Shown here piece by piece: positions 12,301-63,339 of a stretch of 64,000 bases of DNA; within the stretch, counting starts at the first letter, position 1, and every line of letters starts with the position of its first letter. The stretch is from contig OZ020313.1 in assembly GCA_963971305.1 (NCBI GenBank), positions 26,080,602 through 26,144,601 of the forward strand, in the 5' to 3' direction. Origin of the DNA: Arcuatula senhousia (lineage: Eukaryota > Mollusca > Bivalvia > Mytilida > Mytilidae). The translations under genes and the position numbers were made by a program. A model generated the notes under the pieces. That model searched no databases. It saw nothing but the letters and a program-made list of their open reading frames with translations, and was not told the origin of the DNA.

Positions 12301-15300
12301 TCTTACACGAAATTATTTTTCAGCAACATAAGTACAGTATACTTGACATTCATGTTCGAAATGATCTCACAATTCTATTTTTTGGTAAAAAATGAGAAAT
12401 CTTCACAAAAATCACAAATTTCTGAAAATAGGTTTTGAATTTGATATAAACAAATATTAACCAGAAATATCAACAGAAAAAAAAATTATCGGAGACAAAC
12501 AGGTAAGTAGACAGATATTTAACTAAAAATGATATCATATTCTCTATTTTGGGGCAAAAATTATATAATTTAAACAAAAACTGCTGATTTCTGGAAATTG
12601 ATTCTCAATTCATTAATAAAATAATCAAATAGATAATTCTTACACGAAATTATTTTTCAGCAAAATAAGTACAGTATACTTGACATTCATGTTCGAAATG
12701 ATCTCACAATTCTATTTTTTGGTAGAAAATGAGAAATTTTCACAAAAATCACAAATTTCTGAAAATAGGTTTTGAATTTGATATAAACAAATATTAACCA
12801 GAAATACCAACAGAAAAAAATTATCGGAGACAAACAGGTAAGTAGACAGATATTTAACTAAAAATGATATCATATTCTCTGTTTTGGGGCAAAAATTATA
12901 TAATTTAAACAAAAACTGCTGATTTCTGGAAATTGATTCTCAATTCATTAATAAAATAATCAAATAGATAATTCTTACACGAAATTATTTTTCAGCAACA
13001 TAAGTACAGTATACTTGACATTCATGTTCGAAATGATCTCACAATTCTATTTTTTGGTAGAAAATGAGAAATTTTCACAAAAATCACAAATTTCTGAAAA
13101 TAGGTTTTGAATTTGATATAAACAAATATTAACCAGAAATACCAACAGAAAAAAATTATCGGAGACAAACAGGTAAGTAGACAGATATTTAACTAAAAAT
13201 GATATCATATTCTCTGTTTTGGGGCAAAAATTATATAATTTAAACAAAAACTGCTGATTTCTGGAAATTGATTCTCAATTCATTAATAAAATAATCAAAT
13301 AGATAATTCTTACACGAAATTATTTTTTAGCAACATAAGTACAGTATACTTGACATTCATGTTCGAAATATATCTCACAATTCTATTTTTTGGTAAAAAA
13401 TGAGAAATTTTCACAAAAATCACAAATTTCTGAAAATAGGTTTTGAATTTGATATAAACATATGTTAACGAATAATTCAAACAGAGAATAACTTATTATA
13501 GACACATGTTTAAGTACACAGACATTTAAATCAAAATATAATAGCATACATGTAACATCTGTTTTGGGTAAAAGAATTGTACAATTCAAACAAAAATTGC
13601 TGATTTCTGAGAAGTCTTTCTCAATTCATAAATAATCGGAAAAATTTCATCACTGTCATTCAACAACACTTGCATTGCCGTCATTCAATAATACTTTTAC
13701 CGCTCTCATTCCTCAATAACACTTTCATCGCTGTCAGACTCGTCAATTGGCTGTGGAACAACGCTAGCATCCTCTACAAACTCACCCCAGTTCCTGACGC
13801 CATACTTCACATCTGGGTGATGCCTAGCATATCCCAAATACCACAATATGGATGCAACGTGTGCACAAACACCAACAACTCTCGCACCAGCTTTACATTT
13901 GCAATACCATGCTACTATTTGAGAACAGTCATACTGGATCCACAATTGATATTTTTTAGCAGATGTGTGTCTGCTTTGTATTTTTGCTCGAATCAAATGG
14001 AGATCTTCCTGGTGTACAAAAATGTCACAGTTTCCTTCTAAATGCTCTTGCATATAACTAGATGCCATTTTAAGTTGATATATGCCACATGTTATATTTC
14101 TCAGCTCTACTTCTCCTAGTACAGGAAAGTCATCCAAAGAATCTAAAGCAGTTTTCCAAATTACAGAACGTTTTTCTATATTCTCTCTTTCGACCCTTTC
14201 TTTTAACTCGTTAACCTTCTTTGACAGATGTAGCATTTTCGCTGCGATTAATTGGTCATCATCCGCAGCTGAAAATATAAAATTATGCAACAATAGACAT
14301 GATAATCCATACTCTTATCTTTATCCCTTTTTAAAAGGGAAAGATGATTTTTTGAACATTCGCCCGTCCGTCATGCCTTCCAAACTATCATTAAATCAAA
14401 ATAAAGAGAACAACCTTCAAGACACAGAACAGGAACTTATTTTTGTATTATTTGTATGTATTTTTTCACAAACGTATTTGTTTATCCATAACCCTTTTAA
14501 GTTGAAAGGTACAGGGGTGGATCTAAGATTTTTTAAATGGGTAGGCATGAAAAATGGATATTGAAAATATCTAGAAGAATATCATCTATTTTTATTATTT
14601 TCACGCAAAATTGTGGGCATTCACTCCTTAATTACGCCCCCCCCCCCCCTTTTCGATCCGCTGTCACTTTTAACACCATGTTGATGCGGAACACCACTTA
14701 AACGGTAAGTAACGAAAATACGAAATAATATTGAGTTTTGCATTTGTTAACAGCTTTACTCTTAATAAAACGTTTAAAATTGTTTGTTTTTAAATATTTT
14801 ATTAGTCACTTCTCTCTAATATATCTGTGTCTCTGGGTTGCAGTATTATGTGGAAACATACCTGGCGAAAGTGGCGGTAAAAACTTATTTGAGATAGCAC
14901 ACACAATAGACGTATATTCGCCAATGTAGGGGACTTGGTTTGTAGGCAACACATGATCAAGATACTTCCATCTCTTGATTCTGGCATTTGCCGATTCTAC
15001 CACCCATCTAACCTGAAGTAAATACCAATTAAACTTATTACAAGCCTGACATATGCAATTTAATTTTTAAATCAAGGGGGAACGTTTGATAAAATTGAAA
15101 GATAAGTATATGATGTACGAGATGCTTCCCGCCTTTGTTAAAATGCAGAGTATTATTTAACCATGCCATGATCATGTACATTTACAATTCTGCATGTTAA
15201 ATATCAATGCTAAATATACTAGTACAGTTACTTGCAGTTTCACATACATGTACAACTTTAACGATGATTTAAAGAATCTAGACGGACGAATACACGCGTA

Positions 15301-18300
15301 TATTACTATGTTCTGGTTCTTTAAAAATAAAAGGTGGTTGCTACAGAAACAGAGTTCTAGTAAAGAAATGAAGAAAATATATATGCTTTTGGTTAATGAA
15401 AATGCTAACCTTTAATGCTGGCTTAAAATCCAGTCATAAAACTTTGTATCTAAAAAATGTAGACGTTTTAACCATTTTTTTTTCATTTTCTATCAAGACC
15501 ACGATATTTGACTTTATTTTAATTTACCTTTGTGACAAGTCGACTTGAATTTGCCTCTTCCGTGGTAAGTTGTTGCTGTCCTTTCGGTAGAAATGTTGGC
15601 ATTTCAGCTTTGATACCCATGTCCTCTAATAATTCAATGGCGTCTCGGAACCCTCGGTCCACAACAAAAATGTCGTTTTCGTTGATCCATGATTTAATGT
15701 CCTCTACGTTTGATTTTATCATGTGCTTGAGAATAGAGGCATCGTTGTTCTTTCCGTCTGCCAAGTACGGGCCAACAACAGTGATAAAGTAACCGGTTGT
15801 TGTAACAACCACCATAGGTTTAACCAATGGACGACCTTTATGTACACTAAAAGACCTCCTCTGAAATTGGAAATTGCCACTTTTGTTAATATATATATAT
15901 GTTCCGTCCAGCACTAATATTGCTTGCGTCTCCGATATATCTCCAAATAGTGTTTGAGCCAAAGGTCTTGTATGATGTTGAATAACATCTTCACGGGTAA
16001 TGTGTTGAAACCCTAAATTCTCAGGAACAAACTTCTGCATCAGAGCGTTTCTAACGGACGAAATTGCTCTTCTCAAACTTGAGGTAGAAATGTTAAAAAT
16101 GGTAGCCATAACTTTGTTACCAATGCCTGCTTTCAATTTGAACAAGAAGATGCCTAATGATGTTCTGACACTGCGAGCAGGTGTATTTCGGACATACTCA
16201 TTAACGTATGTATGCAAAATATCAAAATTAACCTTGCTTATTCCTGTAAGGTTAACATAATCAGCTGATGACAGTGCAGTATCTGAATCAAAGTCAATCC
16301 TACCTTTCTCATTACGTAGTGCTACGAACCTCAATTTCTGTAAAAGTTCCAAAATAGAGGTTCTGTTAACGAATGAATCACAATAAATGGATTTAACAAG
16401 AGGCATTGCTTCTTCTGTGAAGTTATCGTCCTTCAAATGACTTGGACAGCAGCGACTTCCTGCAGGAACTATAATTTCATTATACAGAAAAACAGAAAAT
16501 CTTGCTTGTGATGGCACTACAAGTAACTTTGGCCCAGGTTTCTTGCATATAAAACAGAAGGAATGGCTCTTAGATGTACATGGGATTTTTAGTGTAACTG
16601 ATGGCGGACTTGGCAACTCAGTGGTTGCCTTTCGTTTCGGTGTTTCAGGAATATAGTCTGGATCTTTTGAAAGAGAGTCATCACACCTGTGCGTAGTTTT
16701 TGGCCTGTTTTCATTCACATAATACTTATGTCTACATTTATTGCAAAGAGTGTCATCAGACTTTGTTGATATCAGAAAATGTTTCTGAAGATATTTTGAG
16801 AGAGATCTTGTGATTTTTCTACGCTCGTGATTTTTTGTCCTTTTGTTGCATAACACACATGGAAAATTCTTCGGACCCTTTCCTGGCATTCTGGAATAGA
16901 TTGAGAGAAAATAGAAATAATATGCATGAATTGTTTTTGGCTCTGCTTTTAAAACTGTTTAAGTTATGATAAAGAAGCAAAAATAAAATTGGCAACTGCC
17001 GGTTTTGAACTACCATTTCTAAATTCGCATAGATATAACTATGTAAAGTTATGTAGTAAACAGAGAACAAATGTCATCCCCTATTTTCTCAATTACAAAA
17101 ATCAGTTGCAAAAATTGGGATAAATCCTGCAACTTCAAGAATCGATTTATCAAAAATATTTGTTGTATGGCTCTATCTTACTGAGTTACACATGTATGCA
17201 AAAAGAAACAATGTATTTTGGATCAAGTGTTTTATAAAGTAACACTATTCAACACTACAGATTCTAAAAAAAAATGTTTTATGCTAGAATGCTTTTTTCC
17301 ATATCTTTGATGTTTTAAGAGCTTTATCTGATTCAATAATCTCTTAATATTTCAATAAAAATATAATTATAAAACGAACAAGTGAATATGTATTGCAAAA
17401 AAATAAGAATATCGAGATTCGAACTCTCTTAGTAGTCTAAAAAGTGTTAAAAATGCTGCTTAGCTAACCGACTGAGCTAAAATATTCTTAGAAGAATATG
17501 GTCTAAAATGGTATATAATTTATAGCAATCGCTGACAAAAAGTTACGCAACTGAACAAAACAAACACTGAGAAAATATACGCATAATAAATGAAAATTGT
17601 CGGTTGGATTTGATAAGACCTAATGTAGACATAACATGCATAACTGCCGTTTTGGCTATAAATGGTCACATTGAGTGACGTTGAGATTGCTTATATAATT
17701 TATTATTTAAATATCGTTTGTATTGATAGTCATTAAATGATTTAAGAAGAAAAAAACAATGCAAAAATGGAAAGTTCCCACCTGGATTCGAACGTACATT
17801 CTCACATTATAAACGCATCGCTTTAACCAATTGAGCTATGGCGGCAAAGTTAATAGAATGGTATATTTAGCATTATTTAAAAGTTAAAAAGAAATAGGAT
17901 ATTATTAGACAACAATAAGAAGTGATGACTAGCAGACGATTTCTACGGACATTACGTTAACTATCACAAACTTGTTTGCAAAGTGTTTCATCATATTTGA
18001 ATAAACAGTAGAAAAAACGTATGAGATGCAAATATTTGTAACGTAACAATCTTTCAAGTTTTTAATAAGCATGGCCATAGGCACCCATACAAATGGGGAA
18101 CCCCATTCGAAGGGAAGGATAAAATTCCAACCGGAGTATCCCGATGGCTTTGAACATCTGCTAATAATTTATTTAAGAAAGTATAGAAATTAATTTTTGC
18201 TCTGCCATGTACAAAAAGAGATAAAAGTAGTGAGTAGTGTCTATCAAAACAATGAACGTGTCGTCCGGGACAAATGGTCGTTTGGGTGACTGGAATTTCA

Positions 18301-36300: not shown

Positions 36301-39300
36301 TAATAAATGAATAAAATTCAAATTAGTTGCATGCATTGCACTTAAGGGTAAAAACATGTAAAGATGAAAATTCTAATTGTAGAAAAAAAGAATTTGACCT
36401 AATTGTTCTTTTACATGTACATGTATATCAATGTAATATGGTGTTCTGGAAAAGGGGTCTCCAGGAGACAATGGTTTGTGTGCCAAGTTATTATATATAA
36501 ATGTACATGTACAAATGTACATGCATTAAAACGTTTGTCAAATAACTTTATAAACAATATACAAATGTACATGCCCATTTGTTCATCATTCAATTTCTTT
36601 ATGGACTGATGCATTCACTGACAAATTGAGCAGTAATTCTATTGTAGGGAAAATGAAAGAACCTTAGTGAGCACGCTCACATACCCCACGCGTTCCGCTA
36701 TTGGACTATCAATGTTATCCTTGAGGAATTAGTATCGAGCTACAGGAATCAATAATATTGAATGATTGTAAAAGTGAATGTGCAAGTATTTGAATACATG
36801 TATCATAACAAAGTTATGTCAAATTTCTAAGTCCAAAGGGCCATAACTCCAACAAAAATTTGGGGATATAAAATTCCTGGTAACATGCACAACTACATAT
36901 GGTGTACTTCTTGCATACCAAGTTTCGTTAAATTCTGTTCAGTAGTTTATTAGGAGTTGTGTTTACAATCTGTAATCATGATTTTCTGCAAATTTCTAAG
37001 TCCAAAGGGCCATAACTCCCACAAAAATTTGCGGATAAAAAATTCCTGGTGATATGCACAACTACATATGGTGTACTTCTTGCATACCAAGTTTTGTTAA
37101 ATTCTATTCAGTAGTTTAAGAGGAGTTGCGATTACAAGCTGTAATCATGATTTTCATTAAATTTCTAAGTCCAAAGGGCCATAACTCCCACAAAAATTTG
37201 CGGATAAAAAATTCCTGGTGATATGCACAACTACATATGGGGTACTTCTTGCATACCAAGTTTCGTTAAATTCTGTTCAGTAGTTTAAGAGGAGTTGTGA
37301 TTACAAACTTTGATCACAGACGGACGGACGGACGGAAAGACGGACGGACGGACGGACCAGTCAAAAACATTATACCCTTCGCAACTTCGTTGCGTGGGGT
37401 ATAATTATGGTGTTTGACTCAAGTACATGTACATATACCAGTTTGAATATTAAGGGAAATCAAAGCCTAAACAATTAACAAAGTTTGGGTTACACAAAAT
37501 ATGTAAACAATATACATGTACATGTATCATTACGTATACTAACCCTCTTTTTCCTCTGTGGGACTTAATGACATCAGATTGTCTGTAGGTACTGCTGGTG
37601 ATCGTGGAGGAGGACGGTTTGGAATCTGCCCTGGGGCAGGGCGCTGAGGGGCGGGTCTTGTTGGTTTGATATGCTGCCTGGGTCCCTTCTGTAAATCTTT
37701 ATTTGACTTATCAACCTTTTTGGACTTGAGTGTAGTACTCGCTGAAGTTGGAGATAGAGGTCGATCTTTTGGCACCGTTGGTCTGGGCGGTGGTGGTTTG
37801 CGTAGCGATGGTTTACGGTTAAAGTCTACAGATTCTGCTTTTTGTGGAGGTGGAGGAGGTTTCCTCATTGGAATAGGCCTTTGGCGCACTGAACTTGCAG
37901 GTTCAAGGTCAGTAAAAAAAGTTGAATAGCCTACTTTAGTCATTGTTTCTGAGGAGTTGGTAAAATTAGCAGAATCTAGAAAAGCTAAAGACTGCCGATT
38001 CTCAGGGTTAACTGTTTTAGGCTTTAACACATCAGTTATTGGAAAATTCACAGAATGTCGTTTTTTATCATTGTCTAATTTTGTCTGAATAGTGGCGTCC
38101 TTGTGTACAGCTTTTGAGATTTTTTCATCCATTTCTTCGGTCAAACTCCCTTTGCCAGAATCATCACTCAAAGTGTCTGTCCTAGTCATTTCTTTCTTTA
38201 TTTCGGACTTTACCATTGAATCTATATCACTTAATGCTAATGAATGATTACGTTTCACAGAGGTATTGATCCCAGAGTTCAAACTTGATAGCTCTGAAGA
38301 TGATCTAGATTTTGGAATATAATCTGATAGTTTGACTGATTTTTGACTTGACACTTTGGAGATATCTTGACCATCTTGAAATGTTAATGATTTACTCATA
38401 CATGTAGTTTTACTATTAACACTAATTTTGACTTGTCCAGACTTGCTATCAGTTTTGGTTACTGGCTTTAAACTAGCAGGCTTAGGTTTAAGAATTGGCT
38501 TTGGAGCAAGAGACGGCTTTGGCTTAACAGGTAGTGACGGCTTTTTGAATACATCAGGATTTGAATTTGTAATACCATTTTTCCTTTCCACAATCTTTTT
38601 CTCTGAATGTGTACTTGTGGTTTCTTGTTTTGCATTAGTACTTGTGGTTTCTTGTTCTGTTGGAAATTTCAAGTCTTTTTGTTCCTGAACATTTTGCTTT
38701 AAATCATTAACAGCAGAATGATTGACATATGTGTCTGAAATGCTTGTATTAGTAAAACTACTTTCACCACTTTGAAAACCACTGTCAGATTTAGAACTTG
38801 TATCAACTTCACTAACGATATCCAAGAATTGTTTTGGCAAAACACCGATTTGTTCCTGGTCATTTTTTGCTTGTACCCAATTATCATCAACATATTTAAT
38901 GATTTCCACTGTTTCACCTGTGAAAACATTCAAATCACCTTCAACTTCACCAGTAAAATCAAATAAGACTAGTCCATACTCAGAAGGGGCAGATAACTCA
39001 AGTTTCACATCAGCTTCATTTGTTTTGAAAATTTTCGTTTCACTTAGGCCAGAATTTTCATTTACAGCTTCTTTTTCCACTAAATCTGGTGCAGAACTAT
39101 CAGTATCATAGGCATAGGGACAGTCCACTACAATGGATACAAAACTGCTGGGAAATATTCCTATTTTATCATCAATTTGCCCCTCGATCCACTGTGAATC
39201 CACATGTTGAATTAAATAAACAATTTCATTTTCATTGAAAGATAATTCACCCTGTGATTCACCAACAAAGGGATAGAGAGTCATGCCATATGGGGAAATG

Positions 39301-48776: not shown

Positions 48777-48994
48777 CTATGCAGTCATCTGTTGTATTTC
48801 TTCATGATGCAACCAAAAACATCCCTTGTTTTTTAAGCACAGTGGTAGTTCACATTGTAGGCACTTATATCTTGTGAAAACATCCCAGCCGCTCTTGGTT
48901 CTTATGCCTTTCCTTGCACAGTAGGCACAGCGTTTGTGATTGCCTTGAATAAGGATGGGGGTGTGGAGAGGCTGTCCTTTGTCGATTCTGTAGT
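48777..48994 (-). CDS. Zinc-ribbon terminal exon F (PGBD-like module)
   Basis: After a TTTTCAG acceptor, in phase 1, the exon encodes YRIDKGQPLHTPILIQGNHK, then CAYC, an 18-residue spacer with KSGWDV, CLQC, ELPLC, CFWLHH and a stop (TAG, 48777). It is the most diverged and shortest member of the six-module set, with a 5-residue gap between the fifth and sixth cysteines. Its pattern fits the C-terminal zinc ribbon of piggyBac-derived proteins. No catalytic domain is nearby. Function is unknown; DNA or protein binding is plausible. Confidence 0.62.
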
Positions 48995-49314
48995 CTGAAA
49001 ATATAAGACAGAAATCTATTAATCATTATATATGATACAAAAAGAGAAAGTTTAACAACTGTGTAATGTTCAAAATGGTTAGAGTATTCTTTTCAATGAA
49101 TGACAGAAGTTATTTTGATAAGTTGTCTTCAAGATAAGCCAAACATGTAAACTTGTATCTGATGTAAAAAAATATGTCCAAAAACACGTGACACCTAATT
49201 TGGGACGGACGGACAAACGAACAGAGGCTCTCAGAACTTCCAATAAGACTTGATCACCTTTAATTGTGCAAAATTTATTTTAGCAAGCGGCGATCTAAAA
49301 AAAATATCCACACT

Positions 49315-49740
49315 GGAATACAAACAGCAGCCTATAATATGACCAGTGGTTGCTGCTCGCCGTCTTGCGTTGACCTAAGATTTAAATACAATACGTAAGA
49401 TTCAATACCAATTCCATAATTGTCAGAAAAAGACCCATCCCATCTGGACAAAGAGTAATTAACATAAGGATGACAAGGGCACCCAAAAGCTTCGACTAGA
49501 ATAGGCACATATAAAATGTAACGTTTTGGGCCTAAACCTAAAGCCCAAGCCGACTAAAAATACAATAAGTAAGATTCAAAATCAATCCCAAAATTGTCAA
49601 CAAAATACCTATTTCTGGACAAAGAACAATAAACAAAAAGAAGACAGAGACAACCAAAAGCTTTGACAAAGATTCCTGGCTTAGGACAGGCACATATATA
49701 ATGTGGTTAAACTAGTTTTCTGGGCCCAACATTCCCCCTA
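49315..49740 (-). mobile_element. R1 family repeat, inverted and partly duplicated inside
   Basis: Shares 'CCAGTGGTTGCTGCTCG' and 'TTAAACTAGTTTTCTGGGCC' with the family. The middle part is present twice in diverged form. Confidence 0.55.
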
Positions 49741-49871
49741 TTGATAAGATGATATGTAGTACCCAACTGCAACTGCAGAATAACAAACAATTATTACAAC
49801 CACTTCAAATGCAATAAAATTAGCAAAATAAGCATTGCTTCAATCGTGTCAATAATACCTTTTGTCAAATA

Positions 49872-51312
49872 ATTTCATTATGGATATAGCCACGTAAAAT
49901 TAACTGTAAATGCCAGTAAAACTAAAACTATGATTTTTCAAAATAAACCTGTTAATATACCAACTTCATTCACAGAGTATAAAAATATTCCTATGCAGAA
50001 TGTAAAAGAATTTAGATACCTGGGATGCTTAATAAACAGCAATGGTAGTCTGATAAACAGTACTGTGGATATGACAAATAAGGCCAGAAAAGTACTTTTT
50101 ACTGTGAAGGGGTACACATCAGACTTAAGTCAAATTCCTGTGAAAGTTTCATGCAATATATTTGATACACTCATTCATCCTATTTTAACTTATAATGCTG
50201 AAATAAGCTTCATGGACCATTATTTGAAATATTATAGAGCCAAACTTAGAGCTCACAAGAACAATCTAGAGGTAGATCCCAATACGTTTATAGATAAAAC
50301 ACCTATTGAGAAGCTACATCTAAGTTTTTGTAAAAATACACTTGGAACTAAGAGAAGTTCCTCAAATTTAGCAACTAGAGCTGAACTTGATAGACTTCCT
50401 GTTGAATCCAATGTAAAAATACAAGCCATATCATATCTTGCTAGACTCTATAGCAATGATATTAATCCAATACTAAAGGAAGCCTTTCAACTAACAGAAA
50501 AACTAGATGTTGAGGGAACATATTCTTGGAACACTTTTGCAAAAAATATTTTGGAAGAAACTAATATACAAAAACATCAGTTAGCAAACTGGGATCCAAT
50601 AAAAAAATTAGGTCATGTTAAAAAAACAATTAAAGACAATGTGACCGAATATTATAAAAAAATAACTATTAACAAAATAAAAAATTTAACAGAAGACAAT
50701 AAGTTGTTCTTATATAAAAGTATTAAAGTAACAATAAATCAAATGGAGTTTTACTTAAAACATCCAAATAAAAAAGTACGTCAAAACATAACAAAGTTTA
50801 GAATTAGTGACCATAAATTATTTATTGAAACTGGTAGATATTTAAAAATTCCCAGGCATTTGAGACTATGTGAAACCTGTAACACTTTAGATGATGAGCA
50901 ACATTTCTTTTTAAACTGTACAATTAACAAAAAAGAAAGGGATACATTACTTAAAAACCTTTTAGATTGGTATCCAAATTTTGATCTGCTTAACAATAAT
51001 GAAAAACTAATAAAAATTTTAAACCCGTCAACACCTGAAGAAATTGGGATTATTGTCTCTTTTATAGATCGGTCATTAGAACTGAGGAAGGGAGAGCCTA
51101 GTTAGTTCCAATATTTAATATAAAATGTTTATATTACTGACTATATGTTTGTTTCATATTCTTCATGTCAATTTGTTATTATTCATGTATATCATTGTTT
51201 TATAATGTATGTCATTGTCATTGTTTTGTATTGTATGCCATGACTGTACTAGTCTCTAGTTGCATTAATAAACTATATAAATATGCACAAAACCTAAAAT
51301 AAAAAAAATTAA
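49872..51312 (+). mobile_element. 5'-truncated non-LTR retrotransposon (LINE), RT C-terminal part
   Basis: Starts abruptly inside the reverse transcriptase thumb region (GYSHVKLTVNASKTKTMIF, the usual 'LxxNxSKTKxMvF' segment). It has an open frame to 51105, a short 3' UTR and an A-rich end (TAAAATAAAAAAAATT). This is a typical 5'-truncated LINE insertion. Confidence 0.8.
49930..51105 (+). pseudogene. LINE reverse transcriptase C-terminal fragment, open for 391 codons
   Basis: Encodes EFRYLGCLINSNGSL, the FxYLGxxxxxxG motif after the RT catalytic region, then IFDTLIHPILTYNAEI. Near the C-terminus is a Cys/His motif LCETCN...EQHFFLNC, as in the C-terminal zinc motif of many LINEs. The catalytic YADD region and the endonuclease are absent, so it cannot act alone. 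The lack of stop codons points to a young insertion. The clade is not determined. Confidence 0.8.
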
Positions 51313-52339
51313 CTGTCGTCTTCATGTAAAGATTGGAGATATCCATATCATGCCCAGATGAATGCCAAGATATTAAGAGCTGACACAAAACAGCTGAAAT
51401 TTGACATTTCAGTATCAATTGGAAATTTACATCATATTATAGATCGCTGCATTTCTATAGTTACTAGGAAAAACCCGCTAATTCGGGAAAATCAATCGTT
51501 GCTTTGCTTTAAAAAATACATGTATACCACACAATTAAAGCATTGCATTTACATGACCTTACATGTTGTGCTAATCTCAAATTAAAGGTTCTACGGTGTT
51601 ATTTAACTCTATATAAGTTTTTGGTTTATTATCTTTTATTGTATTTTATCCCACCTGTAAATTAAACAAAAGTCCATTGCCAGGATAAGTTTCGATCATT
51701 CGCTACGCTGATGGGTATTTATAGTCGTGACTAGGGGAAAGCCCCTCTGCATCGACTTTTAATACCTAAACAGGTATAGACTCGCTATGTGCCATGGGTC
51801 GTCCAGCCCATGACACACCACCGCCAGTGTTAGCTGCTCCAGAGTATCCTTTGTTGCTACGCAATTTATCGTTGATTCTAATTTTACACATTTTAAAACT
51901 TCAATATGGTTTTAATTTTTCTATCAAATTACATTTTTTTAACGATAAAACATCATTTACATACATTTTTATAGTAAACATACCAATATAATTTATTATA
52001 TAAAATCTTTAAATATAAAGCATATCTAATTGAAAAAAAAAATGTGAGTTTTTTGTAATTCTCTGAAAACAGGGGAAATAATTTCAAACATTTTCTAAAA
52101 AAGGAGGGTAATTCCGGAACGATGACGGCTATAGCGATTCCGGATCAATTAATAAGGTTAATAAGCAAACTGCAGACATAATTGCATATATGCTAATTAA
52201 ATTTTCAAAGGGCACAACCATCCCCTATTTTTGATATATGAAGCTTAGTCGTAGCATTTGTTGTTTAGGCTGCAACCCGGCTAACAAAAAAACGCTTCGT
52301 TATTTTAGTAGTAAAGGTATATTAGCTTTCGCGCTGTTG
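51313..52339. other. No gene seen
   Basis: AT-rich, with one GC-richer part around 51690-51850. Separates the LINE from zinc exon E. Confidence 0.45.
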
Positions 52340-52500
52340 ATTTCTGTTTGGTTGATTTTGTGGGGTTTTTTTTGGGTTTTTTTTGTGTTTCTGTGCTGTT
52401 CTTGTTCGTGTTTACCCGTTTTGTCGTTGCCCTTTCGGATTTTTGACACTCGAATACCCTATTGTTGCGTCAATGCCTCTTTGCTACCTTCAGCATCACA
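52340..52500 (+). repeat. R2 family dispersed repeat
   Basis: 'CTGTTCTTGTTCGTGTTTAC', 'TCGTTGCCCTTTCGGA' and 'CAATGCCTCTTTGCTACC'. Confidence 0.55.
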
Positions 52501-52947
52501 CAAAATGAAATGTGTATAAGATCAATACAGAATTTCAAATCTAGTTAGTATCACATTAGAGACATACCAATGGTCGGTTCTTGACTCAGTTAAAACCCTT
52601 TTACACATACTTACTCCGTTACCGTTGTTAAATGTTCATAATAGTGTCTATATGAAAAGGAATTTTGGAGGCTTTATTACATAAAAGAAAGATGGTAAAT
52701 TGCTTGGATATTCTTTCATGTAAAGATAGGCAAAAGGAAGTCGGATTGCTAAGGCTTTGTAATACAACGGGGTGACTGTTTATCAAAAATAATTCATTAG
52801 AACCAGTACACAAATTTTATTTTATCCACACCAAAATCTCTTCCAGTTCTTCAAATATAGTAAAGCTGAAACGTGCTCAAAGCGAAAAACATTACATCTC
52901 AGTGAACTTTGTTTTCATTCACATTCGGAAATGAATTCGCACTTGAA

Positions 52948-53240
52948 TTATGTATTACAACTTGGTTCTGTCTTTCCAAACACAAAAGCGTTGTGAAAAA
53001 GAATGAAACAATGTCGGTTTGTCGTGCTTGCTTTACAAAGCGGCACATTGCATTTTTCGCACTTGAAAAGGGTTTTGGGTATATGACCAGAAGTGGACAG
53101 ATATCCTGTTAGGTGACAGTATCTGCAACGTTTCTGTATCCGGTGGTCTGCAATTGTTACCAGCGAATGAGATGTCATATCACCGGTCGGCAAAGGTGGT
53201 TTCGTGGGCGAATCAAATGATTGATATCCGTGCATGAAAT
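52948..53240 (-). CDS. Zinc-ribbon terminal exon E
   Basis: Phase-1 exon after TTTTTCAG. The linker has FMHGYQSFDSPTKPPLPTGD. The module is CRYC, an 18-residue spacer (TSGHIPKT), CEKC, NVPLC, HCFILFH, then FVFGKTEPSCNT and a stop. Zinc ligands and spacing match the other copies exactly although other residues differ, which suggests selection on the fold. Confidence 0.65.
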
Positions 53241-53949
53241 CTGAAAAAAAAATACAAAAAGAAAATTTATTTTGATATACATTTCACTACAAAATAGTAG
53301 AAATATCTACTTTTATTTTTTTAATGAGGGTAACAACAAAAATTCCGAACTGATGATTCCGAACTGGGATGATCAACCTCATATTTCCAAGAATTAAAAA
53401 TACATACTAGAGAATGACTCCAATACGATGTATTTGTAATACGACTAGGTGACAAACATACATTAAAATAAAAGTACTAAGGTGGATGCAAAAAGAGATA
53501 AAAACAGGAGTTACGGATATATCTTTGCAATGTCGGTCAAGTGTAAGAGGTTTCAAAGGGTGGTGAAGCCTTATCCATGATAACAAGACCGCAAGAAAAT
53601 AACAACTTGAAAGCCTGCATAATGCATCATAAAACAAGAATGTGTCCAACAGATTACAACATTTGGGACAGACAAACGAATGGACGACAGACTGTGACGG
53701 AAGACGAGGCATAAAAACTCTAAAATTGAAGCATTCCAATTGGAAACAACCGATATCATTCAAACTAGACATTTTTTCCCATTACATGCATTAATAATTA
53801 TGCAATGGCTCCAAAACGATATATTTGTAATACGACTAGGTGACAAACCTGCATTTATCAAGGTTCTTTAAACACGAATAGAGCTTTTGGTGGTTCGCTC
53901 TTGCTTTAAACAAGGTTTAAGATATTTTTGAAACCAAAAGGAATGTAAG
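53241..53949. other. No gene seen
   Basis: 'AATACGACTAGGTGACAAAC' occurs twice (about 53440 and 53830), a short direct repeat about 390 bp apart. Otherwise unremarkable. Confidence 0.45.
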
Positions 53950-54558
53950 ATGATTCCTGAAAATACTGATATCATAACAAAAGTAAAGTTATCCTCTCTT
54001 GGAGAAGTTGACTGCTTCACCTATCTGGACAGTGTAATGGATAGCAAAGGTGATTCAGAGAGGGATATCAAATGCAGAATTGGGAAAGCAAGAACAGACT
54101 TCAGAATATGTCATCAATTTGGAGAGCTAGCAACATCATATTGAACACAAAAATCAGGCTCTTTAATTTCAACACCAAAAACCACACTATTTTACGGATG
54201 CGAGACATGGAAGACGGCAAAATGCCTCTTGAATAAGATTCAAGTCTTTGTAAACAACTGCCTCAGACAGATATTGAAGAAGTTGGCTCAGCAAAATTAG
54301 TAACATTGACCTCTGGAAGAAGACCCAACAAGAACCCATGGAATCCGAGTTGATAAAACGGAAATGGCATTGGATTGGGCACAATCCTATGAAAACCTGC
54401 ACACTCCATCACCAGACATGCAAAAGGAATCCACAAAGGAAAAAGGCGAATTAGGCGCCCTAGAAACTTGGAAGCCAAGGGGTACAGATGGACTGATGCC
54501 ACCAGACTAGCCAAAAATCGATTAAGGTGGAGAAGTGTTGTCAGTGGCCTCGGTACCG
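53950..54558 (+). pseudogene. RTE-like LINE fragment with frameshifts
   Basis: Pieces in changing frames read CFTYLDSVMDSKG, RDIKCRIGKARTDF, LFYGCETWKTAK, NNCLRQILKK, KWHWIGHNP and WRSVVSGL, matching the end of RTE-like endonuclease-reverse transcriptases ('YGSETW', 'CLRkIL', 'WIGHvLR'). A stop after the first block (54142) and later frame changes make it a pseudogene. A MITE begins right at its 3' end (54563). Confidence 0.78.
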
Positions 54559-54562
54559 TTGG

Positions 54563-55225
54563 CTTAAAGACATAGAACCTATCATTTTGGCAATTTTAAA
54601 AAAAATAATAAAATTCACACTATTTGAAGAATACATTGTAAAACCTTTGAAGAAATTGTTAAATTTTCAAAAAACCTACCAGAAAGTATCCTTTTCGACG
54701 GGAAACTGAAGGAAAAAAAACGCAGTGTCAAAAAAGAGGACAAACTAATTATAGAATGTAAACACTTGCGGGTGCCGGTAAACTGAGAAACGAAAAGTAA
54801 CCAAACGAAACGGAGCGGAACAAAAACGATACCGGTAAAGAAGTAAGCGTAAACAGTAAAATAAGCAACCGAAATCTGTACAAAAAGGAAACAAAATCGA
54901 GCGAAACTGGTAAAAAAAGAAAACTGAATCGATTTTAGCCGACACCAGTCGTTTTTTCTTAATTTACCGATTTCGTTTTCTCTTCGCCTCGTTTGGTTAC
55001 ATTTCGTTTCTCAGTTTAACAGTACCCAGTTTACCATAAGTAAATATTTATGCTGGACAATATTGAATCAACGCGAATAATTAAAATAAGATTATTTTAT
55101 AGAAAACTGAAATCATGGAGTTTTTATGTTGGTAAAGGTAAGTTTTAGATAGTATATTTTTAATATATGTACTTTTTATTCAATGTAAAAAATTGCGAAA
55201 TTGATAGGTTCTATGTCTTTAAGCA
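54563..55225. mobile_element. 663-bp MITE with nested inverted repeat
   Basis: GCTTAAAGACATAGAACCTA at 54563 is inverse to TAGGTTCTATGTCTTTAAGC ending 55224, and the homology runs on for about 60 bp. A second inverted repeat (54778-55035) with 'GGTAAACTGAGAAACGAAA' and its inverse lies inside, probably another element. Confidence 0.82.
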
Positions 55226-55537
55226 AGTAAGCAAAAGATATTCATCAGTGATCAGTGAACATGTAACTGTATCAGACAAGCTTTATCAGATAAATAATGT
55301 CTATTAGGAAAACTAGCGGGACATACTATATATAGCTAGTAAAAACTCCATTGATTAAAAAATTTATTTTGTTTACATTTCTGGATAAATTACAAGAATC
55401 TATTTTTTCACAAACGTCAGTTGTACGGTACAGCTCAGGTCTTCAAAATGTATCCTAAAAGTTTGTATTCTTCAAAAACACAACGTTGTTCTTAATAGTA
55501 AGTAAGTCGGTGTTATATGCCTTGGCAACACCAAGTG

Positions 55538-55818
55538 TTAGAACATTTTAGGACATGTTTGTAGAACTTCATCATGAAAGAGCTTAAAGCAGTCTCTATC
55601 GGTACTCTGAGCACAGCACAGGGGCACATCACATGCAACACATTTATAAAACGTCTTGTGGTGGAACCCCGACTTGGACTTAATTTTATGAATTTGACAA
55701 TATTTGCAGTATTTCTGGATCGGAAGCTTTACCATTTGATGTTGTTGCAGCATCAATTGTCCTTGGACTTCACTTACTATTGATGCCATGGGTCTGTGGA
55801 AGTTAGAGGAGCTAGGTT
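55538..55818 (-). CDS. Zinc-ribbon terminal exon D
   Basis: Phase-1 exon after CCTTTCAG. The linker starts EPSSSNFHRPMASIVSEV. The module is CKYC, 18 residues with KSKSGFHHKT, CVAC, DVPLC, DCFKLFH, then a short tail to the stop. It is closest to exon C (shared EP..SN start and MVKLP.QKYCK), so the two are recent duplicates. Confidence 0.68.
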
Positions 55819-56682
55819 CTGAAAGGAGAAATATGCTAAAATTATAATATGCTCAAATTTAAACAATCGCGTTCTATAATATTAAATGGTTCGAGGAAGA
55901 AGACGATAGCGCTTTTATGGAACATATGAATGTGGATGAATATACGATAAGATGTACATTGTATGCATATCTAAATAACTGTTTCTAAAAGAAATTCTAA
56001 AAAAAAAACCTAAACCATACAGGAGACAGTTACTAGTAGATAACGACATAACGAAAAAACAAAACACCCCAAAAGACCCAACTCGAGGTTCCGGTAGATA
56101 TTTTTAAAGAATTCAAGTAAAACCAAAATTATATCCATGTGCCCCGGAAGGGCAAACAGTTTCTGTTTTTTTTTTGTAAAGGACTGATTAGGAAAGAACT
56201 AATCTGATTTAGGTTGTTCCCTACTGTCATAGTATAGAAGTAATGAAGAAATCCCATTTTACTTTCTGCTCTGATGACATTTTCGGCATCATCATGGAAA
56301 AAGATGAATTCGGAAAAAGGTAAAGATCTATGACATGACAACATCTGTGCTTATAAACTGAACGGCAGGATGTAGCCTTCGTTATAAACAAATAAATAAA
56401 TTTTAGAAAATTATAAGTCGCATTTGCTTTGAAAGAAAATTGGATGAATTTTTTTGTAAACTTTTAAAGAGTCAAACTGACGATCATTAAAACTACGCCT
56501 AATATCGTAATATGAAATAGGCATTGCCTAACTGCGAGCACAGCATAATTCTGATAATTAAAGGTTGACAAATATTTTTGGTAAATACATGTGAAAAAAT
56601 AAACTCTCCACCTTACAACATAAAACAGAACAGATCCTCTTTTTGCTCTTATATGACAGAGTCCCACGCCTAATGGCCCTGT
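55819..56682. other. No gene seen between exon D and the TAA MITE
   Basis: AT-rich; a short R2-like stretch around 56040-56150 ('CCGGAAGGGCAAACAG'). Confidence 0.4.
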
Positions 56683-58135
56683 CACACTATAACGTTTTAG
56701 CCAATGTGTGTCGACGTTTTAGAATATATTTTCAACACGCTGGTGTGCGTTACGTAAGTTTTGTACACGTTATGAACACGCTACAAACACGTTAGCGAAC
56801 GTCAGCGTGCGTTGGTGATCGCCGAGTGCGTCGCAAATTTTTCAACATGCTTAAAATTTCCGACTTCGCCAACGTGTAAGAAATAAGTTATTCGAACGCT
56901 AGGCATAAGCTAGAAGGACGTTATACACACGCTGATGTACGCTATGTGGTCGTTGTGCGCACGTTGAAATGCGTTTGACGAACGCTAAGCTAAATGGAGA
57001 CGAACATGTCTAGCGATAATGCAGCGCACGTCTGGCGTCAGTCTAACGACCAAGAAACCTATTCAACGTGTTTAAAACGTGTGAAGAGCGCACAGAGCGT
57101 CATTGTAACGAACGAGTAGCGTATCAATCCCAGAATTTTATAAGTTAGATTGAATTACAAGGGGGAAAGTCAATTTCAAAAGCTTCACATACTAATTCAA
57201 ACCTGAAAAAATATATTTACAAAAAAAAAACAATGAACAAAGCCAAAAAAATCTTGAATATGGTCTGGAATTGAAAGTAATTCTTGCAAATTGTAATACA
57301 CCTGTCGTGTTTTCGGTGGACATTTTTTGGGTAGTAAAATACTCAAATACAACGAGTAACGACAGTCTAACTTCAATACTCATTTGAAATAATGTGTATT
57401 TTAAATATTCAATAAGCACACGCGTTTTTCTCTATTAAGGACATCTCCGTCATGCTGTCTGCGATCATTTAGGATAAGTCATAAGCTATAAAAAGGATGC
57501 TAGGCAAAATCTACAGACCGGTATTTCTTACATGTATATATTCATTTAGAGATTTTGAGAGTTTGTTAACAAGCGCATGCATTCCTCTCTGTATATTTTT
57601 GACATATCAAAATATATAATCTACACTATATTTTATTCTTTTTGACTGAGTGCAAAAATCATCACTATTGGTTAAAAAACGGCTTTAGAATAATACTACA
57701 TTCATATTACCAGAACGCTGAAAACCAATATTTTTATAACAAACTAAATTTCTATAATTATTAATAAATCCAGCAATACATTTAAGCCAGATAATAGATC
57801 TATTTGGGCTATTATGAAATAATACTAAAGAAATTAACAGAAATCCTAGGTCTCCCCACCGATAGAAAAAATATAAATTAGACTAACGCCATGAATGCGT
57901 TCTGCAGTCGTCACACATGCGCTAGGCAAACGTCAAGTACGCCGGACGAACGCTATAGATAAGTTTTGAATAAGTTTGTCGTGCGTTGCAGGTAGTTAGT
58001 CTGACGCTTTGTGGTCGTTCACAGAGATATTTTTTGAAATTTTTAACAGCGACTGCCAACGTGTTCCAACGTTTTAGAAAATTATTCGAACGTTCGGCAC
58101 ACGTTGGCTAAAACGTTATAGTGTGACAGGGCCAT
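56683..58135. mobile_element. 1.45-kb MITE, TAA-flanked, with CpG-rich tips
   Basis: TIR TGGCCCTGTCACACTATAAC and its inverse at 58116-58135, homologous for about 37 bp, flanked by TAA on both sides (TSD). The outer parts (about 56690-57130 and 57880-58130) are packed with ACGT, CGAACG and AACGTG words; the centre is ordinary AT-rich DNA. No transposase. A PIF/Harbinger-like non-autonomous element is likely. Confidence 0.85.
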
Positions 58136-58307
58136 AAGTTGAGGAATAAAATCTTTAAAAAATCAAAATATCTCATCTAAAAAAAAACATTCCCGCAAAG
58201 ACGTGGACACGTTTGTTACTGAAACATTTGATAACCTATAAAAGTAAAACATGTGCAAGGTGCTTTTTGGTAAATTTCCGATTTTTTTTATACTGGAGAA
58301 TGTAATG

Positions 58308-58733
58308 TTAAGGTTCCACTAAAGTCAACATCTGGGACATGCATTTCCTATGTAAAATTGAAAAGAATTAGGCAGGAAATTTAAAAACAGCTTTTGCTTT
58401 AAAAACTACTTCAATTGATTCCTTTCTGATACATCTAGTGCAAGCTAGATGTATTTTGTTAAACAAATGTTTTTAAATTGGATAAAATTGATTTTTTTAG
58501 TCCAAGTTAGGGTGCGTTTGACTTTCGTGAAATTGTTCTAACAAAAATCAATATTGTGTTAATTTAAATGAAATTTTCAACAAAATATCACTAGCTTGCA
58601 CTAGATATTAATGCTAAAAACTCGTTTTTTAAGTAAATTTGTTATATATTGTTTCTAATTTTACTGTATAATTCTTTTTAAATTTACATAGGAAATGCAT
58701 GTCCTAGATTTTGACTTTAGTGGAACCTTAACG
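58308..58733. mobile_element. 426-bp MITE
   Basis: GTTAAGGTTCCACTAAAGTC and its inverse at the right end. TIR about 50 bp, including 'GACATGCATTTCCTATGTAA'. AT-rich interior. Confidence 0.85.
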
Positions 58734-59931
58734 AGTTTAAGATGCCATTGTAAACATTTTTAATGAACGACTAAAAAGATTTGTTTTCGACTCGATGCAG
58801 TGAAATAAAATCTGAAATCATCGTAATTATTCTATTTCGGTGCATTTTACTAGAACGTTCAATTTGGGACAAAATGCTTGGGGCGATTGAACGTAAAATA
58901 GAAAAGTAAGAAAAAATCGATTAAAATTTGGTTACTACAAAAATGAAGCAACTCATCGTCATTAGATTATTTTTCTCCTAGTACTTTATAATGATAGATA
59001 ATTTTTGGAATGCGACAAGCAAAATGGGTTATTATTTTAACATTCACTCCAGTCCTGTATTCCTCCGACGGAAAAGCATATCCGGACGAAAAAAAATCAA
59101 TATCAGCATTAATCATCATGATTAATTAATGATAATTAATTATCAGCAAAATTTTTTCGCGGGAACTTGCTGTAGAGCTCTTCGCTCTCACGGACACTTC
59201 GTGTCCGCTACGAGCTGTGCTCGCTAAAAAAGTATTATCAAATCCAGTTTATACCGGAATACAACACTGAAGTTTAAATACACTTTGCAGTTGCACGGAC
59301 GCCACATGCAATGTGATTGGCAGGTGTAAATATTAAACGCTGGTCAATTTAAATTTAGTCAACCGAATTTTTGATGTTTTCATGCCGTAAAAAAATATAT
59401 AATTTACTAAATTTTCGAGCCGAATATGTCAATAAATTTATTTATAAGTATTAACTGTAATGTTGTTTGGGTTTAATGGTGCACACAATGTGCAATAAGA
59501 TAATGATGTTAGCCAAACGACACTAGTAGAGTAGATCGTGCAGTTGGTGCGGACACAGCAAACTAGTTAAACTGACTTTCTTCATATGAATTGAGATATT
59601 ACAAAGAAATGTTTTTTTTAATGTATTATTTAAATAAATTGGAGATACATCTTTAAATGTTAAAAGTTTTCTCAAATGATTGATGCTTAGTTCAGAAACA
59701 TTGTCATAGTTCATGGCACTATATAACAATGAACCGACTCTACCTCTTTCTTTATTTAAAAAAAATATATGCAGAATATCTACCAGTCGCCTGGAAACCC
59801 CCTTTCATCCTCAACAGAATGTAGGCGAAAGCACATTCAAAACAATACTGGATGCGCCGCGTCAGACATGACTTTCCAAACAACCTTCACGGGCAATAAA
59901 TGGGTAAATCAATAATTATGTATAGAAGATA
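58734..59931. other. No gene seen; small hairpins
   Basis: Around 59100-59225 lie an AT palindrome-like run (ATTAATTAATGATAATTAAT) and several short stems (CACGGACACTTCGTGTCCG, GAGCTCTTCGCTC). Confidence 0.45.
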
Positions 59932-60246
59932 ATGAGATGTTAAATAAGTGTACGAGACACAACCTACAATATAAACGACAATTTAAAAAAGCCCACAATG
60001 GAAAACAGCCAGCAGCCTTCAATGTGACCAGTGGTCGCTGCTCGTCGTTTTTCAATTGGCCCTGAATTGAAAATAAATTACATATGATCCATGCCCAATC
60101 CTAAAGTTTCTTCTTGACAAAAAAAAACAATTAACATAAATTCGTCGAAATACAAACAAAATCTTTGATAAAGATTCCAGGCTATATATGCTCATTTAAA
60201 ATGTGGCGGGGTTAAACTATTTTTTTGGTGCCAACCTCCACCCAAC
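59932..60246 (-). mobile_element. R1 family repeat, inverted
   Basis: Contains 'AACAGCCAGCAGCCTTCAAT', 'CCAGTGGTCGCTGCTCG' and 'ATGTGGCGGGGTTAAACTA'. Confidence 0.65.
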
Positions 60247-60424
60247 AAAGCACAAAATTACACAGTCTATTTTATTTATTTACATTTTCTACAAGTTTAT
60301 TTCTATAAAAAAAGAGCAAAAAACCTATTGAACCCCCAACTTGTTTTTTACACTGTTTATAAAGTCTTAAAAAAAAATTATATCTTCATCTTTGATATAC
60401 CGTCAAACATTCTGCACGAAGATT

Positions 60425-60717
60425 TCACTTGATGTTTGGATGACTCATAATGGTTTGTACAATTTCGTTATGATAGAGATTAAAGCATTCTCTTTGGGTA
60501 CTCTCAGCACACAAGGGCACATCGCACGCGAAACATTTAAAACTTGTTTTGTAGCAGAATCCGGCCGTGGACTTGACTTTATGAAGCTGACAAAATTTGC
60601 AATATTTCTGGTTAGGAAGTTTCACCATCAGATGCTGTACTGCCGGCTGTCCTTCACTTACTCTCGATGTCATCAAAGACATGTGTCTGTAGAATTCTAA
60701 GTTAGAGGTCCGGGGTT
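60425..60717 (-). CDS. Zinc-ribbon terminal exon C
   Basis: Phase-1 exon after TTTCTTTCAG. The linker is EPRTSNLEFYRHMS. The module is CKFC, 18 residues with STAGFCYKT, CFAC, DVPLC, ECFNLYH, ending IMSHPNIK and a stop. Here seven residues separate the fifth and sixth cysteines. Confidence 0.68.
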
Positions 60718-61618
60718 CTGAAAGAAAAAAAAATACACTTACGTTATATGCGCAAATTTTGTTAGAACTAATCACTAAGATGAGTGCAAGTACCTTCTGT
60801 AACCTGATAAAAATTGCTAGGGAAGTGTGGAAAGTGCGAGGAAATACATGTTTCTGTAAGGTGTGTGGTATAAATCTTTTAGAAACTGGTAAAACATATT
60901 ACATTATTTCACCATAGACCTAATATACAGTATATGATTTCATAAAGCATCTCAAACTGGATTACTCCAAAACTGAAAGCTTTTTAAAAATCTACTGCAA
61001 TATTAATTTCCCAGCTTTGTTTGCTGAAGTTCAAGACAATCAAAATTTAAAGAAGTGTAGCCTGCCTTCCATCCACAATAGCATTTCTAATTCTGCATGC
61101 AGTGTACACAACTGGTTCGTTGAAAACAACCAAATAGCCTCACAGGAATCATTTCATTTAGGGATCACGAACATTCAAGTATAATGTCATATATTTATAA
61201 TTCTTAAAGAAGGTAAAGTTATTAAAGAGTATAGAGAAAATATAGAATCTCTTTTGATATAAAGGTTGCCCATGCTATAAAAGTACTTTCGGATGAGTTG
61301 AGCCTCGGATATCTCAATACTTTCCAATACCCCCCTCGACTTCGAGTTAACGAGGTTCAACTTTATAGTTAGTAAGCTAAAAACAAACCTAATGTTCTGA
61401 TTAACTTGATTTATTGTGACCAACAAATATGAACATACGAAATAGCTACATTATAATGATTGTGTTTCATAACTCAATGACTTTAAGACATCACGTGAAT
61501 GAGAAAATTGTACAGCATTGGACAAGAGCAAGGCTGGTTTCAAACACATATATCACTCGAAATTGTAATTGAAAAGTTTCGATATCAAAACTAATTGCTC
61601 CAAGTAAAGAGGCGTTTT

Positions 61619-61941
61619 CTATGAAAAATAAACAGTAGGAGTTGGTTGAGAGAAAACGAACTCTTCATGGTAGAGGACAAAACAGTTCCTATCCGTATAA
61701 CTTCCGGAGCAAAGGTTAATGTTACAAGTTTGACATTTGAACTTTGTTTTGACGTTCCATCCCCGCTTCGTTTTGACTTTATATTTTTGACAATATTTGC
61801 AATCTCTTTGTTCATTGTTTGGTCCAATCGTCACAACGGGGTGTCCATCGATGTAGTTTTTGACAAGTCCACGACGGTCGGCGTTCAATAACGGTTGTGT
61901 CATGTCAGCATAACTGTATTGATGCAGTGATGATTTGTCGT
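61619..61941 (-). CDS. Zinc-ribbon terminal exon B
   Basis: Phase-1 exon after GATTTCAG. The linker is DDKSSLHQYSYADMTQPLLN, then a segment ending IGPNNEQRD. The module is CKYC, 18 residues with KTKRGWNVKT, CQTC, NINLC, NCFVLYH, then EEFVFSQPTPTVYFS and a stop. Confidence 0.68.
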
Positions 61942-62507
61942 CTGAAATCACAAAAATAAACAAGTTATTGCTTCTCCCAATGTTTCTTAAGTTTAAGTAC
62001 GACTTGAAATATTCTTTGATTACCGGTATATCATATACCGATTTTACCAGATGAACATCCGATACCACAGGGAATCCATTTTAGTGTCACGGTTCATGAC
62101 TTCTACAAGATGACATTCGCCCACTTCAACCCAGCAGAGCAAAGTAAATCCCATACATATGAACAATGATAAATGCAATCTTTCCACTGCATCTTTAGTC
62201 AAGAGTCGAATTGCGACCATCTAGAAAAATGCAGCGAGTTTTCTAGCTAGTCGAACTTTGACTAGACCCCAAATCCGATGAGCAAGCTTATACGATTTTA
62301 ATGGGTGCATTCAAATGAACATTGCAAGCCAGGAAAACGAACTCAAGCAAAAATTAGTGAAGAGAAGACAGAAAAAACACTCATAACTGCAACCAATATC
62401 AAGTACTCGTGCCAATTTAGAGGACTGAGATAATCTTATTTAAAATGCGAAAACGAACTGAACATTGCCGGGCACATCTTATTTACAAAACATGTATATG
62501 CTTTTTT

Positions 62508-62607
62508 TTCAATTGGCTGGCTGTTTTCCATTGTGGATTTTTAAATTTTACGTTTATAAATAAGTTGTGTCGCGTACACTAATTCCACATCTCATTTTCT
62601 TCTATTT
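62508..62607 (+). mobile_element. R1 family repeat, fragment
   Basis: Contains 'GGCTGGCTGTTTTCCATTGT' and 'CTAATTCCACATCTCATTTT', the right third of the family. Confidence 0.6.
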
Positions 62608-62827
62608 AATACTACATTTGTATTAAGACAATTAAAGCACAATATGACGAGATCTCGAAAACCAAATTGAAAATCAGGATTGAAATCTCGTCTCTTCAGC
62701 ATATGCTGTCACTGACCACGGTTAAAAATATCAAATGCATCAGTATCAAAATTTTAATCAAAGGAAAGAAAACATTAAAGAAATTAAAGCTTTTTTTAAC
62801 ATATATGTTAAAGTTTTGTTGTGGACT

Positions 62828-63339
62828 TCATTTGACAAACTGAAAATCCTTGCCGTCAGGTCCTTGTCCGAAAATGAACTCATTATGAAACAGGACGTAG
62901 CAATGGCGATCAGTGTTTTGTGGGCTACATAGGGGGACATCACAAGTCGCACATTTGAACATGGTTTTTAGTCTTAATCCAGACTTCGACTTGATTTTGT
63001 GTATTTGGCAATATTTGCAGTCTTTTTGGACACGTTTTTCGCTATTAACAGGGACTATTTGATGATTTGACAAGTCGCCACACGGTACTGGACCACTTGA
63101 TTCTTGGTCAAAAGGACCACAGGAAAGACTTGGAAAGTCTGCAACATGCCCAAGACCAAATGGCGGAGGTACAATATGTTCTCCGAGAACTTCCATGGAT
63201 TTCTTTGATGTTGATGTTTCCACTCTGTAGTTTTGGTTAATTCTAGGATTGGTTTCCGGCTTACGAATATACATATCACGTGCTTGACCAAAGCTTGGGA
63301 AAGTTTCAATTTGCTGGTTTCGAGGACCGAACATGGCAC
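62828..63339 (-). CDS. Zinc-ribbon terminal exon A (longest linker)
   Basis: A 512-nt phase-1 exon after TTCTTTCAG. The roughly 115-residue linker is Pro/Ser/Gly-rich and includes GAMFGPRNQQIETFPSFGQA and VPPPFGLGHVADFPSLSCG. The module is CKYC, 18 residues with KSKSGLRLKT, CATC, DVPLC, HCYVLFH, then NEFIFGQGPDG and a stop at 62828. It is nearest to the presumed 5' exons beyond the right edge. The long linker suggests a different binding surface from exons B-F. Confidence 0.7.

Follow-up and report, generated by a model that had tools for sequence, protein, structure and literature searches.

Does a row of short minus-strand exons in the bivalve Arcuatula senhousia, each encoding one zinc ribbon and a stop codon, supply interchangeable ends to a single gene, and if so to which? 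The exons lie in a stretch of 64,000 nucleotides of contig OZ020313.1 (C11; assembly GCA_963971305.1), C11:26080602-26144601, which is referred to here as the window and within which exon coordinates are counted. An earlier note made from the letters of the window had delimited six such exons (A-F) and proposed that any of them could be spliced to one upstream donor, the ribbon perhaps being a domesticated transposon tail amplified in place. With a probability of about 0.9, judged from the sequence, A-F would be alternative 3'-terminal exons of one minus-strand BTB gene whose shared exons lie beyond the right end of the window.

All six exons are as originally delimited: A (m01, 48777..48994), B (m02, 52948..53240), C (m03, 55538..55818), D (m04, 60425..60717), E (m05, 61619..61941) and F (m06, 62828..63339), with m and p designating minus- and plus-strand ribbons respectively. 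Each begins directly after a TTTCAG acceptor, is entered in the same phase with two bases preceding the frame (phase 1), continues through a linker into a ribbon with the spacing CX2C-X18-CX2C-X4-C-X5..8-C-X4-H, and closes on a stop codon. The suspected kinship to the piggyBac C-terminal ribbon holds in a hidden Markov model scan, where all six exceed the PF13842 (zf-Tnp_2) gathering cut-off of 24 bits by scores of 26.7-31.4 (A to F: 30.6, 27.1, 31.4, 30.1, 26.7 and 29.4 bits). None of the six matches a transposase-core family (E up to 10), which leaves the linker and ribbon alone with no DDE core, and AATAAA or ATTAAA lies within 300 nt of all six, as in 52% of random stretches.

The number six did not stand, as the array continues beyond the window, which takes in only its far end. 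When the ribbon motif was sought in the DNA read onward to C11:26339999 it was found in 42 intact open frames, 34 on the minus strand (C11:26129378-26186659), extending 42 kb past the right end of the window, and eight on the plus strand (26224122-26245410). The top-scoring acceptor enters in phase 1 in 41 of the 42 (binomial against 1/3, p 8e-19), and this equality of phase is not due to chance. By comparison, 225 control open frames of 80-320 amino acids (aa) divide among the three phases as 97/73/55 with a median acceptor score of 1.59, versus 6.25 in the ribbons; only the ribbon exons were omitted from these controls, and the C2H2, BEN and other exons of the locus still among them may inflate the 97. 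Successive minus-strand ribbon exons are separated by a median of 758 bp and a minimum of 95 bp (less than 1 kb in 19 of 33 gaps and less than 300 bp in eight), so there is little room for private 5' exons.

Two BTB genes stand head to head between the minus and plus tail arrays. The shared coding exons of the minus core are at C11:26206286-26206411, 26200953-26202199 and 26198061-26198404 (125685-125810, 120352-121598 and 117460-117803 relative to the window, 53-62 kb past its right end), and those of the plus core at C11:26215649-26215777, 26216349-26217529 and 26217899-26218167. The second exons match the BTB family PF00651 at 39.8 and 38.4 bits, and their mutual identity is 57% across 257 aa, rising to 75% in the first 126; the plus gene is a paralogue of the minus gene. 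Spliced together, minus exons 1 and 2 give a full BTB domain that matches the structures of BCL6, BACH1 and Miz-1 (best E 1.3e-14), and the structures found are of BCL6/ZBTB, BACH and Kelch type (60 of 86 PDB matches listed). The third core exons close at phase-1 donors, AGAG|GTAGGG on the minus strand and AAAG|GTAGGT on the plus strand. Joined conceptually, the minus core and exon D form an open frame of 670 codons, and the plus core and a plus ribbon one of 663, each including the stop.

Relatives provide predicted isoforms of just this form. A protein search with the minus isoform gave 411 matches, 120 of them listed and 119 named (P0012, which has no junction, was omitted). The named ones belong to Mytilus, scallops and oysters and so represent three pteriomorphian orders (lineage taken from one species each). 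Many are 'isoform Xn' of a single LOC, with numbers up to X37 in Mizuhopecten. Five of the 119 have no same-core partner; among the matches listed, 111 of the remaining 114 diverge from their partners 0-6 residues past the junction predicted from the donor (offset 0 in 17, 1 in 51, 2 in 31, 3 in 10 and 6 in two). The cores end before the divergence in ...NNPLGGFR, ...NNSWYxGxFK or, in a second scallop core, ...NSSWYMGSYK. In all 119 listed the first tail residue is GNN-coded (G 70, D 28, E 13, A 6, V 2), as follows from a donor that ends in the G of a split codon. These counts include P0004 (M. coruscus), which reads through the donor and has no alternative tail, P0080 and P0081, which have one tail in common, P0079 with another N-terminus, and M. 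galloprovincialis in two annotations, such that several rows are not independent; the junction motif was moreover fitted to core ends already seen.

Individual tails can also be matched between species. The isoform X18 tail of M. californianus LOC127705185 has its nearest match in exon F, at 72% over 76 aa compared with 53% for the runner-up m05, although the tree does not resolve this pair; other relatives' tails match m12, m33, m34, p35, p37, p39, p41 and p42. The tree places Mytilus counterparts beside m12, m33, m34, p35, p37 and p39 with starred support, from few columns and with a bootstrap that had not settled. Mytilus tails at least 55% identical to the locus fall on the minus strand when they belong to the A-core (6/6) and on the plus strand when they belong to the B-core (9/9). 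Taking all best matches the figures are 7/7 and 29/31, with no match for seven of 45 tails; the two opposite-strand best matches among the 38 are both at 49% and have no clear counterpart. The M. californianus genes LOC127705185 and LOC127705183 and Pecten maximus LOC117336493 are of the same kind, with switched tails as predicted isoforms, and the scallop models are named FLO11-like or myoneurin-like. Isoform models of such genes are already in the databases, annotated piecemeal.

Ribbons are present as first described, but they are not the sole type of tail. About four minus-strand exons (C11:26187223, 26189462, 26155037 and 26160952) were assigned as C2H2 tails by likeness to relatives' C2H2 tails and by reading; of two that were scanned, one exceeds its Pfam cut-off (zf-met, 22.9 vs 21.2). 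The plus strand carries two BEN exons above the Pfam cut-off, three exons with no Pfam match that resemble Mytilus B-core tails and are read as BEN-like, and three DUF3504 (Crypton-like) exons (C11:26255151-26261489), two of them over the cut-off. The last are 64-71% identical to tails of M. californianus LOC127705183 isoforms and constitute a second transposon-related tail type, DUF3504 having originated from Crypton recombinases (PMC3212892). Among 13 frames of the C2H2, BEN and DUF3504 types an acceptor was found in 12, all in phase 1 although four are weak (-3.0 to 2.3), and a phase-1-type acceptor was seen in the thirteenth by eye only.

The array evidently grew by duplication in place, as had been supposed, since ribbons next to each other on the minus strand resemble one another more than they do when their order is shuffled (154 vs 110; 0 of 5000 shuffles). 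Nonsynonymous (dN) relative to synonymous (dS) divergence is low in m31/m32 (dN 0.06, dS 0.34) and in m03/m04, exons C and D, C having D as its nearest copy (dN 0.31, dS 0.85), and saturated or nearly so in the other 12 of 14 copy pairs. The proposed transposon origin survives in part. The ribbon is of piggyBac type, but the piggyBac-type frames now in the genome are no close source: their ribbons have branch lengths of 2.2-3.2 changes per column with unsure placement in the tree, and their Cys5-Cys6 loop has three residues as opposed to 5-9 in the ribbons of the locus. Recent piggyBac insertions were rejected on the lengths of these branches, and the step from transposon to tail is one that we infer. 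A genome search for PF13842 at E 0.001 gave 19 matches in the locus and nine elsewhere, four of the nine in long piggyBac-type open frames; a DDE core was read by eye in frames L009-L012.

Equal phase, a phase-1 BTB donor on the same strand and predicted tail switching in relatives together support the idea that the terminal exons are interchangeable. We propose that the last shared minus exon is joined to one of 34 ribbon or about four C2H2 exons downstream, each bringing its own acceptor and stop, so that every mRNA would carry one tail and every protein the same BTB module with a different C-terminus. The plus gene would do likewise with eight ribbon, two BEN, three BEN-like and three DUF3504-type exons. 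Core and tail are likely joined in cis rather than in trans in A. senhousia, and the choice of tail could be made by competition among terminal exons with their poly(A) sites. With basic two-zinc tails, each BTB dimer would then be directed to a separate DNA or chromatin target; on the model of mod(mdg4), the core would pair proteins and the tail select the target (PMC4667647, PMC5666082, PMC11426971).

Several observations weigh against this interpretation. A distance of 68.5 kb separates exon A from the shared donor. A PF13842 match is missing in six of the 42 ribbons, which were assigned by motif and likeness; the 36 positives combine 29 of 33 found with an E limit of 1 and seven of nine above the cut-off, and for the 36 exons other than A-F the scan covered the ribbon pieces only. 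The ribbon at 26239266 has its best acceptor in phase 0 (score 2.0) with phase 1 close behind (1.7), and two further copies are decayed, one by loss of a first-pair Cys (26166403) and one by a stop (26184648). Poly(A) hexamers lie within 300 nt of 29 of 42 ribbon exons, too weak an excess over the 52% of random stretches, and poly(A) enrichment was dropped as evidence for terminal exons. The isoforms of relatives are predicted models, many from one pipeline and the same LOC. No counterparts of exons A-E were found in relatives, in a search of proteins clustered at 90% that gave only P0005, already known; such clustering hides isoforms with a common core. Lastly, the variant domain of PiggyMac, which bears on what the tails would do, binds histone H3 and not DNA (PMC8086355).

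How far do other explanations account for the same observations? The tails might have promoters of their own and be trans-spliced onto the BTB pre-mRNA, the mechanism described for fly mod(mdg4) and lola; this scheme would suit the shared architecture and the long distances between core and tail. We consider this unlikely, as core and tail share a strand in all 15 of the closer Mytilus comparisons described above (6/6 and 9/9), cis-splicing suffices, and with eight gaps shorter than 300 bp there is hardly space for promoters of the tails. Local duplication would also suit a tandem array of independent small genes, each with private 5' exons; such an array is very improbable and was rejected because of the common phase in 41 of 42 exons, the gaps as short as 95 bp and the relatives' models that attach the tails to a BTB core. 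Even less credible is that the exons are functionless debris of piggyBac copies. The nine outlying PF13842 matches, four of them in piggyBac-type frames, are in its favor, but 42 intact frames against two decayed, low dN/dS in the two close pairs, the Mytilus counterparts and the very long branches to resident piggyBac-type ribbons all argue otherwise.

Alternative terminal exons of a BTB gene remain our preferred reading, within which the tails could bind either nucleic acid or protein. The solved structure nearest to the ribbon profile is piggyBat 9c0f (E 4e-5), and a fold search with a predicted ribbon model (mean predicted local distance difference test score, pLDDT, 67.6) ranks piggyBat and PiggyMac first to third (E 0.05, 0.13 and 0.97, none below 0.001). 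The seven C-terminal ligands of the two-zinc order are present in all 42 ribbons, whose frames were chosen by such a motif, with X18 between the first CX2C and the second in 40 and X19 in two. Ribbons of the locus thus resemble the piggyBac cysteine-rich domain (PF13842; piggyBat 9c0f, PiggyMac 6zop) in profile, ligand order and C-terminal placement, and differ from the transposase in that their exons have no DDE core and the ribbon would be spliced onto BTB. That the tails read proteins or histones rather than DNA, each bringing the shared core to a different chromatin partner, is a real possibility though not the one we favor. A His upstream of CxxC, CxxC, C, C, H in 39 of 42 ribbons follows the order of the H3-binding PiggyMac variant, and contacts made with Su(Hw) by the C-terminal region direct the targeting of Mod(mdg4)-67.2 (PMC8086355, PMC5666082). 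Yet all 42 ribbons are basic (pI, the isoelectric point, at least 8.3, median 9.3), whereas the PiggyMac domain is negative overall, and the cysteine-rich domain of T. ni piggyBac binds DNA (PMC8086355). Because the variant order is thus combined with the opposite charge, the assignment of the tails as DNA or chromatin readers is no more than a fair inference.

To our knowledge, BTB loci with dozens of tails on one core are known only from insects. In mod(mdg4) of Drosophila and other insects, shared BTB 5' exons are followed by tens of alternative 3' exons, most encoding one zinc-binding FLYWCH domain, with tandem duplication of tails (PMC4667647, PMC11426971), and lola, with a BTB core, has 20 isoforms, of which 17 differ in their C2H2 tails (PMC11426971). 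The bivalve locus shares with the former its 5' BTB exons (PF00651), its many equal-phase 3' exons (41 of 42) and its duplicated zinc tails, and with lola a BTB core and the presence of C2H2 tails. It departs from mod(mdg4) in having piggyBac-type ribbons, C2H2, BEN and DUF3504 tails, a BTB domain nearest BCL6, BACH1 and Miz-1, and core and tails on one strand, probably joined without trans-splicing; compared with lola it has more tails and the ribbon as the main type. No FLYWCH domain was found by Pfam in the tails scanned. In flies FLYWCH is of transposase origin. The BTB domains of the TTK group carry the motif FxLrWN, which is absent from both core N-termini as read by eye. With neither a TTK-group BTB nor FLYWCH tails, the locus does not appear to be an orthologue of mod(mdg4) or lola.

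Literature searches of open PMC papers found no description of this bivalve multi-tail system, and the word piggyBac is absent from the available part of a survey, molluscs included, of transcription factors derived from transposons (PMC10027918). We suggest tentatively, and at less than even odds, that pteriomorph bivalves evolved a combinatorial chromatin code independently of insects, in which BTB dimers draw on 42 ribbon tails together with the C2H2, BEN and DUF3504 tails of this head-to-head locus and probably of sister loci, every tail reading a DNA or chromatin target of its own. As with FLYWCH in flies, the tails would have been recruited from transposases and multiplied in place. If so, pairing of isoforms in BTB dimers would yield hundreds of distinct regulators, and the architecture would prove to have arisen repeatedly, here in a lophotrochozoan whose BTB domain is of another type and whose tails are transposase-like. 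How one donor selects from more than 30 terminal exons could then be studied in a second, independent setting, and the many naturally occurring piggyBac-type zinc domains of the locus would help to learn what the domain reads. It would also explain the confusing FLO11-like and myoneurin-like bivalve names as isoforms of one gene family.

Similar loci are likely present elsewhere in the genome. A genome BTB search gave 11 matches: the two cores described here, five close ones at 78-81% (C4:54645275(-), 54669471(+) and 54880570(+); C11:590805(-) and 925915(+)), one at 37% (C11:35124977) and three weaker. When a single C2H2 tail was used as the query (150 of 1276 candidates scored), 31 matches resulted; apart from the query itself, six follow C4:54669471, C4:54645275 or C11:590805 on the matching strand at a distance of 65-85 kb downstream. 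Since C2H2 is a common domain, we put sister loci of the same design no higher than likely. At C4:54645275-54753746, divergent BTB cores 24 kb apart are followed by plus-strand C2H2 frames downstream, likely a sister multi-tail locus, and a lone locus-type ribbon frame at C11:35098653 (L004), 26 kb downstream of the 37% core, is perhaps a small relative.

Other features were noticed in the window as well. Continuing downstream from exon A, the next gene on that strand is an SH3-rich one (3123-40944, minus) with three SH3 stretches in 37542-39947 and RhoGEF-like pieces recognized by eye, which is probably DNMBP/Tuba-like. Within its region is a DDE_Tnp_4 open frame (15522-16958, minus; PF13359, 32.2 bits), a transposase copy or remnant, and a tandem array of 5.2 copies of a 335-bp unit with 92% matches is at 11870-13635. 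A plus-strand open frame of 410 codons (49873-51105) between exons A and B matches nothing in Pfam at E 0.01 and resembles a retroelement end.

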